Of a stretch of 64,000 nt of DNA, positions 52,563-61,797 are shown one piece after another; positions within the stretch are counted from its first letter, which is position 1, and every line of letters starts with the position of its first letter. The position numbers and the translations under genes were made by a program. The notes beneath the pieces were generated by a model. It saw only the letters and a program-made list of their open reading frames with translations, did no database searches and was not told the origin of the DNA. The DNA comes from Candidatus Aminicenantes bacterium. GTDB taxonomy: Bacteria; Acidobacteriota; Aminicenantia; Aminicenantales; UBA4085. The DNA is taken from assembly GCA_026393855.1 (NCBI GenBank), contig JAPKZJ010000114.1:1-64000 (forward strand), given 5' to 3'.

Positions 52563-53864
52563 ATGATGGACCGGAACGGAATGATGCGAGCGGCGCTCGG
52601 CCTGCTGGCGTTGTCGGCGGCCGCCGTCGCCTTCGGCCAAACGCCCGGACAGGCCGACCTAGAAGCCCTCAAGAAGACCGCACCGAAGGTCTATCTCGAT
52701 TGCGGCGAATGCGACATCGAGTACATCAAGACCGAGGTGACGTTCGTCAACTATGTCCGGGACCGCAAAGAAGCCCAAGTCCATATCCTGATCACCACCC
52801 AGGCGACGGGCAGCGGCGGCCGGGAGTATATGCTCAACTTCCTCGGCCAGAACGAATTCAAAGGCCTGGACGATACAGTCCAATATTTTTCGAACAGTAC
52901 GGATACGGACGACGAAGTCCGGCACGGGCTGGTCAAAGCCCTCAAGATCGGGCTGGCCGGCTACGCCGCCCGCACCCCGATCGCCTCCCGCCTGACTGTC
53001 CAGTACACGGCTCCGCCCCGAACCGGCCCCATCGTCGACCGCTGGAACAGCTGGGTCTTCAGCCTTAACTCGTCCGGCTATTTCAACGGCGAAAAATCGC
53101 ATACCCAGAACAGCTGGGGCGCGAACGCCTCGGCCAACCGGATCACCGCTGGGAGCAAGCTGCGGCTAGGCTGGTCGGCCGATTTCCACGGCGACCGGTT
53201 CGAGTACGAAGGCGAGACGATCAAGAGCCACCAGGAGAGCTACGAGTTCAACGGCCTTTACGTGACGGCTTTGGGCGACCACTGGTCGGCCGGCCTGGCC
53301 CTGGACGTGGAGTCCTCCACCTACGACAACAACCGGCTGAGCGTCGCGCCCGCCCCGGCCATCGAGTTCAACGTCTTCCCCTACGCCGAGTCGTCCCGCC
53401 ATCAGCTTCGCTTCCTGTATAAGATCGGGTTCGAGTCCGTCCGCTACCGCGAGGAGACGATCTATTTCAAGACCCGGGACAGCCTGTTCAAGCACAGCCT
53501 TTCGGCGACGCTGGAAATGAAGGAGAAGTGGGGCTCGATCTCCACGGTGCTGTCCGGCTCCCAATATTTCAACGACCTGACGAAATACCAGGTCAACATC
53601 TTCGGCAGCGTCAACTTGAACTTGCTCAAGGGCCTCAGCCTGTACGTGGCGGGCGGAGGCGGGCGGATCCACGACCAGCTCGGTCTGATCAAGGGCGAGG
53701 CCAGTCTGGACGAGGTGCTGCTGCAGCGCCGCCAGCTCGAGACCGGCTACAACTACTTCGTCATGGGCGGGCTGAGCTTCACCTTCGGCTCGATCTATAC
53801 CAACGTCGTCAATCCGCGGTTCGGCAACCAGGGCAGCGGCGGCGTCCATATCGTGATGAATTGA
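52563..53864 (+). CDS. outer-membrane beta-barrel protein, unknown function (paralogue 1)
   Basis: 433 residues with a signal peptide (cut near AFGQTPG). A periplasmic-looking N-terminal domain (about 35-165) contains VYLDCGECDIEYI and 'FVNYVRDRKEAQVHILIT'; from about 170 the sequence alternates polar and hydrophobic residues with many aromatics, as in a barrel, ending 'FTFGSIYTNVVNPRFG'. It is paired with the next gene, whose barrel motifs match it: NGEKS, LGDHWSAG, VFPYAES, LLQR-QL-TGY. I recognise no named family. AAGGAG precedes the ATG. Confidence 0.8.
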   Translation: MMDRNGMMRAALGLLALSAAAVAFGQTPGQADLEALKKTAPKVYLDCGECDIEYIKTEVTFVNYVRDRKEAQVHILITTQATGSGGREYMLNFLGQNEFKGLDDTVQYFSNSTDTDDEVRHGLVKALKIGLAGYAARTPIASRLTVQYTAPPRTGPIVDRWNSWVFSLNSSGYFNGEKSHTQNSWGANASANRITAGSKLRLGWSADFHGDRFEYEGETIKSHQESYEFNGLYVTALGDHWSAGLALDVESSTYDNNRLSVAPAPAIEFNVFPYAESSRHQLRFLYKIGFESVRYREETIYFKTRDSLFKHSLSATLEMKEKWGSISTVLSGSQYFNDLTKYQVNIFGSVNLNLLKGLSLYVAGGGGRIHDQLGLIKGEASLDEVLLQRRQLETGYNYFVMGGLSFTFGSIYTNVVNPRFGNQGSGGVHIVMN

Positions 53865-53875
53865 GGAGCTCGGCC

Positions 53876-55150
53876 ATGATACGATCACAACAATCCCGAT
53901 TCGCCGCCGCCGGCCTTCTCTTGTTCCTGCTCCTCGCCGCCGGCGCCTTGGCCCAAGTCACGGACAAGCCTCCCGCCAACGCCGCCGACAACCTGCCCCG
54001 GGTCTGGCTGGAAGGGCCCGGCCTGTCCGGAGAAGCCCTGCAGGCGGATATCGCTTTCGTCCGCTTCGTCACGGACCGGGCCCAAGCCCAGGTCATCGTC
54101 ACGGTCGAGCCGACACGCGTCCTGTTCGCCGGGCGGGGGGAGTATGAAAAGACGCGGGCCGAGTATCCGCTGGGTCCCGAGCCGAACGAGCCCCCGGACC
54201 GGTTCCGCACCCGGCTCGTCCAGACGCTTCGCCTGGGGCTGCTTCGCTACGCCTCGAAATCGCCGGCCGCCGGCCTGCTCAGCGTCAGCCTGCTCGACGC
54301 CGTCAAGCCCACCTCGGTCGTCGACCCCTGGAATTTCTGGGTCTTCAGCGTCTCCGGCAACACCTTCGTCAACGGCGAGAAATCCTACGCCATGAGCAAC
54401 TTGTTCGGCAGCTTCTCGGCCAACCGGGTGACGCCCGATTGGAAGCTCCGGATGTCCGCCGGACTGTCCTTGTCGCGCAACCGATACACCCTCGAAGACT
54501 ACGACTACACCAGCGATTCGCACAGCACCAGCTTCAGCGGCCTGGCCGTCAAGAGCCTGGGCGACCATTGGTCCGCCGGCGTCATTCTGGAGTTCCAGCG
54601 CAGCACGTATGCCAACACCCGCTGGGGCGTCAACCCCCGGCCGGCGATCGAATACGACGTCTTCCCCTATGCCGAATCGACCAAGCGCCAGTTCCGCTTC
54701 CTATACACGATCGGCCCCACGTTCATCCGCTACGACGAGCCGACGATCTACGACAAGACCCGCGAATCGCTGCTGGGCCAGTCGCTGACGGCGGCCCTCG
54801 AGTTCAAACAGCCGTGGGGCGCTCTCAGCGCCGATCTGACCGGCTCCCACTATTTCCACGACCTCAGCAAATACCGGGTCGAGCTGAGCGCCGAAGTCTC
54901 GATCCGGCTGTTCAAGGGCTTCAACGTCAACTTCGAAGGCAGCGGCTCGCGCGTCCACGATCAGCTCAACCTGGCCAAGGGCGGGGCGACGCTGGAGGAA
55001 GTCCTGCTGCAAAGAAAACAGCTCGCCACCGGCTACAGCTACAGCTTTCAGGCCGGGTTCAGCTACAGCTTCGGCTCGATCTTCAGCAACATCATCAACC
55101 CGCGGTTCGGCTCGGGCAACGGCGGGTTCAGCATGAACATCAGCATGTAG
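53876..55150 (+). CDS. outer-membrane beta-barrel protein, unknown function (paralogue 2)
   Basis: 424 residues with a signal peptide ending near ALAQVTD. It is clearly homologous to the preceding protein over its length: 'WNFWVFSVSGNTFVNGEKS', 'SLGDHWSAGVILEFQRSTY', 'YDVFPYAESTKRQFRFLYTIG', 'EVLLQRKQLATGYSYS'. The CxxC pair of paralogue 1 is absent here (EGPGLSGEALQ in that position). Gene order, 11-nt spacing and GAGGAG site suggest co-expression; the two may form one complex or be successive specificities. Confidence 0.8.
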   Translation: MIRSQQSRFAAAGLLLFLLLAAGALAQVTDKPPANAADNLPRVWLEGPGLSGEALQADIAFVRFVTDRAQAQVIVTVEPTRVLFAGRGEYEKTRAEYPLGPEPNEPPDRFRTRLVQTLRLGLLRYASKSPAAGLLSVSLLDAVKPTSVVDPWNFWVFSVSGNTFVNGEKSYAMSNLFGSFSANRVTPDWKLRMSAGLSLSRNRYTLEDYDYTSDSHSTSFSGLAVKSLGDHWSAGVILEFQRSTYANTRWGVNPRPAIEYDVFPYAESTKRQFRFLYTIGPTFIRYDEPTIYDKTRESLLGQSLTAALEFKQPWGALSADLTGSHYFHDLSKYRVELSAEVSIRLFKGFNVNFEGSGSRVHDQLNLAKGGATLEEVLLQRKQLATGYSYSFQAGFSYSFGSIFSNIINPRFGSGNGGFSMNISM

Positions 55151-57271: not shown

Positions 57272-57676
57272 ATGGTCAAGATCGGGGATCAAGCGCGGCG
57301 TTGGCTGGCTTTCGCGCCGGCCGTCCTTTATTATGCCGGGATCTTCTGGCTGTCCTCGAGAAGTCATCCGCCGTCCCTGCCTTCGTTTCCGCTGGCCGAC
57401 AAGGTCGCGCACGTCTTTCTCTATACCGGCTTCGGGGCCGGGCTCCGTTTCGCCTGCGGCCGGTTCCTCCGGGAAAGGCCAGGGGCCGTTTTCGGAGCGG
57501 CTTTCGCCCTCGGCCTGCTGGGCGGCATCCTCGACGAGATCCACCAGGCTTTCGTGCCCCTGCGGGATTCCAACGTCTGGGACGCCGCCGCCGACGCCCT
57601 GGGCGTCTTGGCCGGCATCGTCATCTTCGCCTGGATTGCCGTCCGATGGAGGGCTTCTTCTCGAGCCCGGGATTGA
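57272..57676 (+). CDS. VanZ-family membrane protein
   Basis: 134 residues, four hydrophobic segments. 'YYAGIFWLSSRSHPP', 'ADKVAHVFLYTGFGAGLRF', 'GLLGGILDEIHQAFVPLRDSNVWDAAADALGVLAG' are characteristic. VanZ proteins give low-level teicoplanin resistance in enterococci, but most relatives have no known role. It is apparently leaderless. It precedes the cytochrome operon, which has its own promoter. Confidence 0.9.
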   Translation: MVKIGDQARRWLAFAPAVLYYAGIFWLSSRSHPPSLPSFPLADKVAHVFLYTGFGAGLRFACGRFLRERPGAVFGAAFALGLLGGILDEIHQAFVPLRDSNVWDAAADALGVLAGIVIFAWIAVRWRASSRARD

Positions 57677-57730: not shown

Positions 57731-58696
57731 ATGATTCGAGAAGCCGAACACCCGAATGCCTTAAAGTTTCTGCCGGCGGCCGCCCTGGCCTTGGCGCTCG
57801 CGGCCGCGCCGGCCTGCGGGCTCCTGAACAATCCAACCCGGGCCGGACAGGGCGGCGACGCCTCGACGAAGCTCGTCCACGGCTTAAACTTGGGCGGCCA
57901 GGCCCACGCCGACGGGCTCTGCCGGCCGCTGGAAAACTGCACGGCCTGCCATGGCGCCGATTTGAAAGGCGGGACGAGCGGACAGCCTTCCTGTTTTTCG
58001 TGCCATGCCGACCTTTGGATTCGGCCCAACTGCGGGCAGGGAACGACTTCCCATACCGTCTCTCTCAAAGGCATCATGCATAAACCGGAGTATTGCCAGC
58101 CGCTGGCGAACTGCACGGCCTGCCATGGCGCCGACCTGCGGGGAGGCCCGGGCGGGATTCCCGGCTGCACCGCTTGCCATGGGGCCCTTTGGACCGCCCC
58201 GAACTGCGGCCAAACCGCCCATACCGTAAACCTGGGCGGGAAGATGCACGCGCTGAACTATTGCAACCCGGAGGCCAACTGCACGGGGTGCCACGGCGCC
58301 GGCTTGCAGGGCGGGCCGAACGGCGCCCCATCTTGCACGTCGTGCCACGGGACGAAATGGACCAACCCGGATTGCGGCAAGAATACCCACACCGTCAACC
58401 TGGGCGGAGTTTTTCACGCCTCCGAATACTGCCGGCCTTATCAGAACTGCGTCTCGTGCCACGGGACGGATCTGCGCGGCGGCGCGAATGGGGCCGCCTC
58501 CTGCTTGAAGTGCCACGATCAGAAAAAATGGATGAACTGCGGCACGACCCAGCACACCGACAGCCAGGAAGGCGTCAAGCACGCCCGAAACAAAAAGAAC
58601 GCCCCCACCGACTGCACGCCCTGCCACGGCTCCGACTTGCGGGGCGGGCCGAACGGGGAGCCATCCTGTTACAAGTGTCACGGCAAGGCATGGTGA
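57731..58696 (+). CDS. decaheme c-type cytochrome built of five diheme modules (lipoprotein)
   Basis: 321 residues. Ten CxxCH heme sites are at C70, C88, C128, C146, C184, C202, C240, C258, C295 and C313, in five modules of about 56 residues. A module reads H-T-V-x-L-x-G-x-x-H, YC-x-P, N-C-T-x-CHG-x-D-L-x-GG, S-C-x-x-CHG, xx-NCG. Two His per module could be distal ligands, and the extra Cys pair (YCxP and NCG) is repeated in modules 1-4 and may form disulfides. N-terminal segment ends APAC, a plausible lipobox, so the protein should be on the outer membrane. First gene of the porin-cytochrome operon. Confidence 0.9.
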   Translation: MIREAEHPNALKFLPAAALALALAAAPACGLLNNPTRAGQGGDASTKLVHGLNLGGQAHADGLCRPLENCTACHGADLKGGTSGQPSCFSCHADLWIRPNCGQGTTSHTVSLKGIMHKPEYCQPLANCTACHGADLRGGPGGIPGCTACHGALWTAPNCGQTAHTVNLGGKMHALNYCNPEANCTGCHGAGLQGGPNGAPSCTSCHGTKWTNPDCGKNTHTVNLGGVFHASEYCRPYQNCVSCHGTDLRGGANGAASCLKCHDQKKWMNCGTTQHTDSQEGVKHARNKKNAPTDCTPCHGSDLRGGPNGEPSCYKCHGKAW

Positions 58697-58703
58697 GCCG
58701 GCT

Positions 58704-59675
58704 ATGCGAAAAGAATCGATTCTATCTCTGAAATCCCTGGCCGCCGGACTGGGCCTCGGCGCCTGCGCCCTGGTTCTCATTTGGACTTTTTCGGCCTGCC
58801 GCGCGACTTTGCCCACGGGTGGACCGCAAACCATTCCCGTGCCGGCGGCCAAGCCCGTCTCGGACGAGGTCAAGGCCCATGCCGATACGGGATTCCCGCT
58901 GGAAGGGCGGCACGCCGAGCTCGAGTGCGACGCCTGCCACGGCGGCAAACAGGGGCCCAAGCCGGACTGCAAGACCTGCCATACCCCGCCTCACGAGCCC
59001 GGCCTGAAGAAGACGTGCGTGACCTGCCACACCCCCGGGCATCCTTTCGCCGAGGTCAAGTTCAAGCATCCGGCCAAGGGACTGTTCACGACCCACCAGG
59101 GTGTGGCCTGCCTGGCCTGCCATCCCGGCCGAAAATTCCTGTCCGCCAATCGGGCCTGCGCTTCCTGTCACACCGATTTCCACAAAGGGGCTCAAAACCG
59201 GGACTGTTCGGTCTGCCACCGCGGCGGCGATTGGACCAACATCCGATTCAACCACAGCGGCACGGGCTTGCCCTTGATGGGCGCCCACAAGGCCCTGGAG
59301 TGCGGCGACTGCCATCGCGACATGCAAACCTTCCGGATCACGCCCCGGCCCTCGTCCTGCGCCGTCTGCCATGACGCCGCCTACCGGAGCTCGCCGTTTC
59401 CCCATGCCGCCTACGGCGCCGGCCGGGACTGCCAGGAGTGCCATCTGCAGGACACCTGGAGCTACGCCCACAGCCCCTTCTGGTTCAACATCCAGACCGG
59501 CTCGATGGCCGGGCTCGACTGCGCCTCCTGCCACAAGACGCCCGGCAGCTACCGCGAGTATTCCTGCCACGACTGCCATAAGGGCCACACCGGCGATCGC
59601 AACGGCCGCTGCCTGGATTGCCATCCCGGCGGTTTCCCGAACGGCGCGCAGATTTCCGGGCGGAGGCCGTCGTGA
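58704..59675 (+). CDS. dodecaheme c-type cytochrome
   Basis: 323 residues with twelve CxxCH motifs (CDACH, CKTCH, CVTCH, CLACH, CASCH, CSVCH, CGDCH, CAVCH, CQECH, CASCH, CHDCH, CLDCH). Many additional His residues (e.g. HPFAEVKFKHP, DFHKGAQ, RFNHSG, FPHAAYG) can be distal ligands, as in cytochrome c3/c7-type wires. The N-terminus has a hydrophobic segment ending FSAC, a weak lipobox, so anchoring in a membrane is likely. It starts 7 nt after the decaheme stop. Confidence 0.9.
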   Translation: MRKESILSLKSLAAGLGLGACALVLIWTFSACRATLPTGGPQTIPVPAAKPVSDEVKAHADTGFPLEGRHAELECDACHGGKQGPKPDCKTCHTPPHEPGLKKTCVTCHTPGHPFAEVKFKHPAKGLFTTHQGVACLACHPGRKFLSANRACASCHTDFHKGAQNRDCSVCHRGGDWTNIRFNHSGTGLPLMGAHKALECGDCHRDMQTFRITPRPSSCAVCHDAAYRSSPFPHAAYGAGRDCQECHLQDTWSYAHSPFWFNIQTGSMAGLDCASCHKTPGSYREYSCHDCHKGHTGDRNGRCLDCHPGGFPNGAQISGRRPS

Positions 59676-60970
59676 AGAGCTCCCTGGCCGCGTGGATCCT
59701 AGGGGCCGCCTTGGCCCTGGCCCCGCGGCCCGGATCCGGCCAGACCGCTCCCGTGCCCGCACCCGCGCCCGCTTCCGAGCCGGCCGTCCGGCTGAAGGGC
59801 GTTCTCTCGCTGCGCTACGCCTATTCCGGATCGTCCGCGGCGTCGACGATCGGCAATTCGCTGCGCCTGACCGGTGCCTTCCGGTTGACCGCCTTGGGCG
59901 ATAAGATCAGCCTCCGCTATCGGAGCCATCACTGGATCAACTTCCAGCACACGCCCAACTCGGTGCTCGAAAGCCCGTACGAGAACCGGCACATCCTGCA
60001 GACCGTCGCCCTGGATACCGACGGGCTTATCGCACCCGGCGTCAAGACGACCCTGGGCCGATTCTTCCCCGATTTCGACTACGCCAGCATCCCGGTGATG
60101 GACGGCGGATCGGCCGGATGGGAAGGGGGCGGGTTCTCGGTCCGGGCCGCGGCCGGCCGGATGTTCGATATCTGGACCGGGAAGGAAAGCGGCTCGGATC
60201 TGTTCACGGCCGCCCAGATCAAGGTCAAGAAGCCCGGATTCAGCGCCAGCCTGGGCTGGAACGCGGGCCGTTTCCTGGGCCTCCTGCAGAAGGAGATTCC
60301 GGCCGGCGTGAGTGTCTCCCTGAACCAGACCGTTTGGCTAGAGGCCTATGGCAGCTACGACCTCGAGCGCAGCGATGTCGCCCGGGCCGGCTTCAGCGCC
60401 TCCTGGCACGGCGACTCGACCACGTTCTCCGTCCTGGCCTCGATCTGGCGGAATCCGTTCGACCAGCTCTATATCCTCGACCGGACGCGCGCCTCCGCCT
60501 CCTGGGGCTTGTTCGACGCGGCGACTCCGGCTCTCTACCGCGACTTGCGAGTGACGGGCGGCTGGAGCGGCGCCGGCTGGGGCCTGCGCGGTTCGCTGGG
60601 AGCCATGTCGGGCGTCCGGTCGGGTTGGCTGGGCAGCGCTTCGATCACGACACCGCCCGTCCTCGGCATCCGGCTGACGGCCGGCGGACAGGCCATGCGC
60701 ACGGACATGATCGAATTCTACTCCTTGGATATCGGCACGGAAGGCCAATGGGCCGGCCTGGATCTCCGCCTCCAGACCCAGACTCGGTACTATCAATGGC
60801 GTCCCCGGGCCTCCGGATTCCACAACCTCGATAATTATACGGAGCTGTCCGCCGAGTATCCCCTCAACCGGCACGTCTTCGCCGGTCTCGCGGGCGGCGG
60901 CTATTTCCGGCAGCTGGGCAACGAGCCGTTCAAGCCCCAAGCCGAATTCAGGATGATCATCCGGCTGTAA
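59672..60970 (+). CDS. outer-membrane porin of a porin-cytochrome complex
   Basis: 432 residues from the GTG at 59672 (GGAGG upstream), overlapping the dodecaheme stop by 4 nt. After a signal peptide (to about SGQTAP) the sequence is a barrel of alternating strands: 'VRLKGVLSLRYAYSG', 'DKISLRYRSHHWINF', 'VKTTLGRFFPDFDYASI' and a C-terminal 'FKPQAEFRMIIRL'. No heme motif. Size is close to the OmbB-type porins that sheathe cytochromes in Geobacter, shorter than MtrB. Position and coupling imply it houses one of the cytochromes. Confidence 0.82.
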   Translation: MKSSLAAWILGAALALAPRPGSGQTAPVPAPAPASEPAVRLKGVLSLRYAYSGSSAASTIGNSLRLTGAFRLTALGDKISLRYRSHHWINFQHTPNSVLESPYENRHILQTVALDTDGLIAPGVKTTLGRFFPDFDYASIPVMDGGSAGWEGGGFSVRAAAGRMFDIWTGKESGSDLFTAAQIKVKKPGFSASLGWNAGRFLGLLQKEIPAGVSVSLNQTVWLEAYGSYDLERSDVARAGFSASWHGDSTTFSVLASIWRNPFDQLYILDRTRASASWGLFDAATPALYRDLRVTGGWSGAGWGLRGSLGAMSGVRSGWLGSASITTPPVLGIRLTAGGQAMRTDMIEFYSLDIGTEGQWAGLDLRLQTQTRYYQWRPRASGFHNLDNYTELSAEYPLNRHVFAGLAGGGYFRQLGNEPFKPQAEFRMIIRL

Positions 60971-60976
60971 AGCGGA

Positions 60977-61747
60977 TCAGCGGAAGGCGTTGCGGTCGCA
61001 ATCCCCATCCTCGCAGCCGCAGAGTCGGGTCAGCCGGCGCTTCAGATAAAGAAAGGCCTTCTGCGGGTCCGAGAACATCTTGAACAGCCCGACATCCTCC
61101 GGAGCGATCGTCCCGGCCTTGATCAGGGCTTTGAAATCGATCACTTTGCGCCAGTAGTCCTCTCCATAGAGCACCACGACGACCTCCCGGCGGTCGATCT
61201 TGCCCGTCTGGATGAGGGTCATCGTTTCGAAGAACTCGTCCAGCGTGCCGTAGCCGCCGGGGAAGGCGATGACGGCCTTGGCCTGGGAGATGAGAAAGAA
61301 CTTCCGCATGAAAAAATAGTGGAAGGCGAACGACAGCTCGGGAGAGATATACGGATTCGGAGCCTGCTCCTGCGGCAGAGCGATGTTCATGCCGATGGTC
61401 TTCCCGCCCGCCCGGGCCGCGCCGCGATTGGCGGCTTCCATGATGCCGGGGCCGGCTCCGGTGCAGATGACGAAGTTCTTGCCCTTGGGGCGAAGCGGAA
61501 TGGCCCAGCGGGCCATGCGGAAAGCCAGCTCCTCCGCCTCCCAGTAGTAGCGGTGCAGGCGAGACCGCTTGTCCTCCGGATCGATCCGGGCCGAGCCGAG
61601 GAAGAGCACCGTGGTGTTGACCTTCAACCGGTCGAGCCGGGACTTGGGTTCGATGTATTCGCTTAAAATGCGCAGAGTCCGGGCCTCCGGCGAATTGAGA
61701 AATTCGGCGTTCTCATAGGCCTTCAGCCCGATGGGATGGGAATTCAT
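60977..61747 (-). CDS. LOG-family protein
   Basis: 256 residues from the ATG at 61747, with GAGGTGG upstream. 'FLGSARI', 'VICTGAGPGIMEAANRGAARAGGKTIGMNI' and the motif PGGYGTLDEFFE match the lysine-decarboxylase-like/LOG superfamily. LOG enzymes hydrolyse AMP-type nucleotides to ribose 5-phosphate and base. The C-terminus has an unusual Cys cluster (CGCEDGDC), a possible metal site, not typical of the family. Confidence 0.9.
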   Translation of the reverse strand: MNSHPIGLKAYENAEFLNSPEARTLRILSEYIEPKSRLDRLKVNTTVLFLGSARIDPEDKRSRLHRYYWEAEELAFRMARWAIPLRPKGKNFVICTGAGPGIMEAANRGAARAGGKTIGMNIALPQEQAPNPYISPELSFAFHYFFMRKFFLISQAKAVIAFPGGYGTLDEFFETMTLIQTGKIDRREVVVVLYGEDYWRKVIDFKALIKAGTIAPEDVGLFKMFSDPQKAFLYLKRRLTRLCGCEDGDCDRNAFR

Positions 61748-61768
61748 GTCCACCTCGCGTTCGCCTGC

Positions 61769-61797
61769 ATCATAGTCGAAAGCCATTTTGACATCAA
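61769..61797 (-). promoter_or_regulatory. promoter of the LOG-family gene
   Basis: TTGATG (61797-61792), 17-nt spacer, TATGAT (61774-61769), 21 nt ahead of the start. It overlaps the divergent promoter at 61788-61816. Confidence 0.6.

Follow-up and report, generated by a model that had tools for sequence, protein, structure and literature searches.

The analysis of a 64,000-nucleotide stretch of DNA from Candidatus Aminicenantes bacterium (the window) revealed a three-gene cassette arranged like an outer-membrane electron conduit. Its first product, a decaheme cytochrome, is for this reason read as a surface wire, probably lipid-anchored on the outer face of the outer membrane. The cassette lies on the forward strand and runs from the decaheme lipoprotein-like cytochrome (321 amino acids; 57731..58693, stop codon to 58696) through a 12-heme c7/c3-type cytochrome (323 amino acids in four triheme units; 58704..59672) to a putative outer-membrane beta-barrel of 433 amino acids (59669..60967). 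The 12-heme gene begins seven bases past the decaheme stop codon, and the barrel gene overlaps the end of the 12-heme gene, with a GTG start assumed for the barrel and a longer version from a TTG at 59618 being possible. The cassette genes are close or overlapping in two species, the one in the window and a congener (G001).

The decaheme protein contains ten CxxCH motifs with a spacing of 18-40-18-38-18-38-18-37-18, which bears out the first-pass annotation of this DNA, where five modules with two CxxCH sites 18 residues apart had been described. The gene is longer than had been annotated, as coding begins at 57731, about 190 bases upstream of the start given. Module 1 (58 amino acids) spans 57872..58045, module 2 (56) 58046..58213, module 3 (56) 58214..58381 and module 4 (55) 58382..58546, all on the forward strand and all carrying a pair of additional cysteines. 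Module 5 (49 amino acids; 58547..58693, forward strand) lacks this pair, as do the single-module relatives, and only four residues follow the final CxxCH, both as annotated at first pass. The repeat exceeds what chance would give, because the protein has 67 self-identities at a lag of 56 residues against a maximum of 46 among 2000 shuffles in which all CxxCH residues were fixed in place. Nevertheless, the term "identical" units was too strong, as the modules share 41-62% of their residues in pairwise comparisons. The protein matches Pfam Cytochrome_C7 with 27.2 bits (cut-off 24.8).

The mature part of the decaheme protein has exactly ten histidines outside the CxxCH motifs (50/59, 108/117, 164/173, 220/229 and 275/284), two per module and 9 residues apart in all five, in agreement with the two candidate distal ligands proposed earlier for each module. 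Ten proximal histidines are thus balanced by ten distal ones. With two histidines of its own at a fixed spacing, each module is on paper a self-contained bis-His diheme unit, and by sequence no partner molecule is needed for bis-His ligation of the ten hemes. The same H-x8-H pattern is found in 12 of the 12 modules compared (five from the window, four from the congener's protein and three from single-module proteins). The second distal histidine lies 11 residues ahead of the first CxxCH in 11 of them and 9 residues ahead in the congener's last module, and the CxxCH pair is 18 residues apart in ten modules and 17 apart in two. In the congener, three surplus histidines in the mature part make the balance inexact.

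The cysteines of the decaheme protein outside the heme motifs are residue 29 and the pairs 64/101, 122/159, 178/215 and 234/270, with modules 1-4 holding a pair apiece, as had been noted. Across the 12 modules, which are kin and hence not 12 independent cases, both extra cysteines occur in seven, neither in five and a single one in none. The modules devoid of them are the two C-terminal modules of the window and congener proteins and the three single-module proteins. This both-or-none pattern fits one disulfide within each module, which is favoured over a link between modules because the latter would leave unpaired cysteines at the ends. The disulfide lock considered at first pass is therefore in line with the cysteine pattern in 12/12 modules, the bond itself being a prediction.

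Cys29 stands at the lipobox position behind a hydrophobic leader. Lipoboxes were read by eye, and that of the decaheme protein (APAC) is degenerate. A cysteine follows a hydrophobic leader in five of the five members of the diheme-module family, with VLSC in the congener and AVSC, IVSC and AVGC in the single-module proteins. It is on account of these relatives that the decaheme protein is read as a lipoprotein and that a lipid anchor on it appears likely. In one of the single-module proteins (G275, L041 6648-7277), the lone diheme module ends a long Pro/Ala-rich stretch behind the lipobox, i.e., it is tethered.

The first-pass annotation had also raised the stacking of units into filaments. 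Head-to-tail polymerisation of the decaheme protein into an extracellular cytochrome filament would accord with its repeat architecture and high heme density, and OmcZ filaments form without shared ligands according to the available part of PMC9473688. OmcS, OmcE and OmcZ are heme chains for long-range transfer too, but they are polymers of a fixed subunit, and in OmcS and OmcE, as the accessible text of two reports has it, heme is ligated by a histidine of the next subunit (PMC9473688, PMC12954529). Such a shared histidine is not required here, given ten predicted distal ligands for ten hemes within the chain; neither chain end is short of a ligand, unlike OmcS and OmcE. Furthermore, a lipid anchor is likely and none of the PDB nanowires was matched by sequence. 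Searched by sequence with the decaheme protein and with the module, 12-heme and barrel profiles, the PDB yielded short CxxCHG matches or nothing. The in-chain ligands, the lipobox-like cysteine and the operon with a putative barrel make a single-chain wire on a conduit a better fit than a polymer, so that filament stacking is not supported and is the most improbable of the readings weighed.

The 12-heme cytochrome, with its 12 CxxCH motifs and a Pfam Cytochrome_C7 match of 61.3 bits, is the multiheme c-type element of the proposed conduit, where its place would be periplasmic; it reaches the NCBIfam family TIGR04257 (nanowire_3heme) at the cut-off, with 40 bits. The barrel protein of the window contains 15 alternating hydrophobic segments, against a maximum of nine among 200 shuffles. 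This segment count is crude, as the congener's barrel has ten (equalled in two of 200 shuffles) and a presumed soluble control has nine. The barrel protein has no Pfam or NCBIfam family (Pfam at E up to 1), nor was it matched at that threshold by the MtrB/PioB-type barrel, which we take to be the Pfam family relevant to MtrCAB. AlphaFold models from two-row alignments reached a mean pLDDT of 33 for the decaheme protein and 31 for the barrel, the latter mostly beta at low confidence; neither was taken for fold searches or distances.

In Pfam and NCBIfam, the two cytochromes match heme families only. Together with the lack of any family for the barrel, this speaks against another kind of redox system, for instance an oxyanion reductase in which the repeat would merely be a scaffold. 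Such a system is suggested by extI, a Geobacter conduit gene that influences selenite and tellurite reduction in the available passages of PMC6148476, yet it is considered highly unlikely here.

In the preferred reading as a surface wire, the 12-heme cytochrome would carry electrons from the periplasm into the beta-barrel, and the decaheme lipoprotein would pick them up outside and relay them along its ten hemes to an external acceptor, which may be a mineral, humic matter or a partner cell. Each module of 49-58 residues would hold two hemes through a pair of distal histidines belonging to it and, except for the last, have a Cys-pair clamp. The repeat, the balance of ligands, the cysteine pattern, the cassette, its retained synteny and the variable module number are evident from the sequences; we infer the membrane side, the nature of the barrel, the stacking of the hemes, the direction of flow and the substrate. 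A candidate quinol-side partner is encoded elsewhere in the same genome (contig C44; L072 3355-5502): a protein of 716 residues and 18 hemes with a NapC/NirT N-terminus, directly following ResB and CcsA-type maturation genes, which could supply electrons from the quinone pool.

Geobacter conduits combine a multiheme periplasmic cytochrome, an outer-membrane beta protein and a redox lipoprotein, as outlined in the available part of PMC6148476. OmbB-OmaB-OmcB and ExtABCD are there three-element clusters like the present cassette, and ExtA is likewise dodecaheme. The likeness is by description only, and the lipoprotein here differs in being a pure diheme repeat of variable copy number. Porin-cytochrome complexes have also been reported from further groups, among them an acidobacterium, in the excerpt of PMC7399161.

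Another related system is PCC3 of the Gallionellaceae, a porin complex in which the presumed extracellular cytochrome has 10-35 hemes and a long, largely linear shape in models, next to a periplasmic partner with 21, 24 or 27 hemes (PMC10734462, in part). It includes an inner-membrane protein, whereas the cassette here has none; the excerpted text describes no diheme module or Cys pair, and the comparison again is one of descriptions. GSU1996, GSU0592 and GSU2210, termed "nanowires of hemes", carry many hemes on one chain, as does the decaheme protein; GSU1996 consists of a triheme domain repeated four times, with its hemes 3-5 angstrom apart edge to edge (excerpts of PMC10138318). Those proteins are periplasmic and built from triheme c7 domains, in each of which one heme is His-Met ligated, while the decaheme protein has diheme modules predicted to be all His-His. 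It is the 12-heme partner, with TIGR04257 at the cut-off, and not the decaheme protein, that resembles the GSU1996-type family. As far as these two sources go, a presumed extracellular conduit subunit that varies in heme number (PCC3) and a single-chain repeat wire (GSU1996) are already known. Among the best-ranked, mostly open-access literature, judged by titles and openings of abstracts, a repeated diheme module of this kind is undescribed.

In the congener G001 (76% complete), the cassette recurs at the same place with its gene order unchanged: an octaheme protein with four modules, a 12-heme protein with 12 CxxCH motifs (62% identical) and a barrel (59% identical). No cassette protein was found in another congener, G002 (95% complete). 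Of 142 class genomes, two encode the multi-module protein and the same two the full-length barrel; full-length matches to the 12-heme profile are found in these two as well, with partial matches in 18 further genomes. Within this set, the full-length forms of the three cassette proteins only co-occur.

Single-module diheme lipoproteins are encoded in two genomes of the same order (G434 and G427) and in one of another family of the phylum (G275), all belonging to genera other than that of the window. The diheme module is accordingly known in one, four and five copies per protein, i.e., 2, 8 and 10 hemes, and the comparison of homologues called for at first pass yields heme counts that are modular rather than fixed. 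In the octaheme protein, the nearest counterpart of module 4 of the decaheme protein is module 3 (71%), and that of module 5 is module 4 (60%). Owing to this likeness, the change in module copy number between the congeners was probably internal to the protein. The module tree has long branches and no starred branch, with weak support for pairing the first modules of the two proteins with each other and likewise the last ones. Assembly collapse behind the difference is unlikely, the longest exact within-gene repeats being 26 and 11 bases.

A search of the phylum with the module profile matched 33 of 396 genomes (E 1e-4), and outside the genus only G275 gave a strong full-module match (E 9.6e-16). 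Of the 27 weaker loci, a set that excludes the window's own genome, G275 and G006, nine were inspected; these were other multiheme types, except for one without a multiheme frame. The scan of the named genome collection gave a single match (L005), which by inspection is another multiheme type, and plasmids gave no module match. In G006 (C27:52658-52750, in L042), a decayed diheme module is situated away from the cassette locus, with its first CxxCH gone and a stop behind the second.

Within the family, the order asparaginase, a presumably RlpA-like gene, VanZ-like gene, cassette and a gene that we take to be LOG-like is largely retained. The VanZ-like gene on the left (57272..57673, forward strand; Pfam VanZ) is a flank kept in relatives, and the right flank, assumed to be LOG-like (60980..61786, reverse strand), is convergent with the barrel gene and present in 12 of the 12 family genomes. 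The cassette itself is missing from ten of the 12. In G005, however, 29 barrel-end-like codons lie between the VanZ-like and LOG-like genes (L080 1421-1498), scoring 104 against 37 for the best of 200 shuffles, and G009 has a weaker barrel remnant (L081 2261-2326; 61 against 37). A stretch of G006 (L082, just upstream of 1504) is identical to that of G009 in 130 of 146 alignment columns, its own protein score being at background (24). No barrel remnants were detected at the locus in G002, G003, G004, G007, G008, G010 and G011 (scores 20-32); in G009 and G011 the sequence covered ended some 300 bases past the LOG-like gene. Because related genera keep remnants at this syntenic position, the cassette probably predates the split of these genera and was lost more than once. 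Recent horizontal gain is rejected by the same remnants.

The 12-heme partner belongs to a wider set, its profile matching 20 of the 142 class genomes (E 1e-9). The 14 complete frames outside the congeners have 9 (one frame), 12 (four), 15 (three), 21 (one) or 24 (five) CxxCH motifs, all multiples of three, and the intervals between motifs recur in a pattern of roughly 16-25-32 residues; this count leaves out frames truncated at contig ends (G443, G469, G470 and two of G475). These ladder proteins are encoded, among other loci, at L100 3661-5637, L102 3129-5003, L111 1529-3424, L099 4220-5446 and L040 7047-7862. The longest type (G434) consists of eight copies of a triheme unit of about 73 residues, and copy number varies even within one genus (15 hemes in G472, 24 in G473 and G474).

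Five operons with these distant 12-heme relatives were read, and none has a diheme lipoprotein. In four of them (G016, G399, G434 and G184) a hexaheme protein, with just five CxxCH motifs in the frame of G434, is followed by a barrel-like protein (about 433-452 residues) and the ladder protein; in the fifth (G449), a gap of matching size lies between the hexaheme and ladder genes. A conduit thus does not always need the diheme lipoprotein, and two kinds of repeat-built cytochrome serve putative conduits in the class. The same operons, in which 12-heme relatives from other families stand beside barrel-like and hexaheme proteins with no surface lipoprotein, lend some weight to placing the decaheme lipoprotein on the periplasmic face of the outer membrane, where it would be a capacitor or shuttle feeding the 12-heme/barrel conduit. 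GSU1996 and similar single-chain repeat cytochromes of Geobacter are also periplasmic in the excerpted account (PMC10138318). However, the cassette already has the 12-heme protein for that side, and in Geobacter conduits the periplasmic cytochrome is matched by one that is a lipoprotein (PMC6148476, available part), so that the periplasmic placement is regarded as unlikely.

For the surface wire, self-ligating, clamped modules would mean that modules can be gained or dropped without breaking heme ligation, and the modular number series is suggestive of a biological wire that lengthens or shortens in this way. It is tentatively proposed, at somewhat less than even confidence, that a one-module lipoprotein was multiplied to four or five disulfide-clamped modules on a conduit, with copy number setting the electron reach and the partner cytochrome within this class being tuned likewise, by three-heme steps from 9 to 24. 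Relatives with 2, 8 and 10 hemes from one diheme module, and with 9-24 hemes from a triheme module, form a natural length series in which the effect of wire length on electron transfer can be tested with natural rather than designed variants. With the same series, whether disulfides stiffen heme wires becomes testable.

Finally, two adjacent secreted proteins elsewhere in the window (52563-53861 and 53867-55147) look like paralogues by eye, and neither has a Pfam match. A 23-heme protein with initial spacings as in the hexaheme protein is encoded in G473, G474 and G478 (L109 579-2450, L110 2671-4704 and L114 1809-3662), and in L109 and L114 its gene lies directly ahead of the ladder gene's region.
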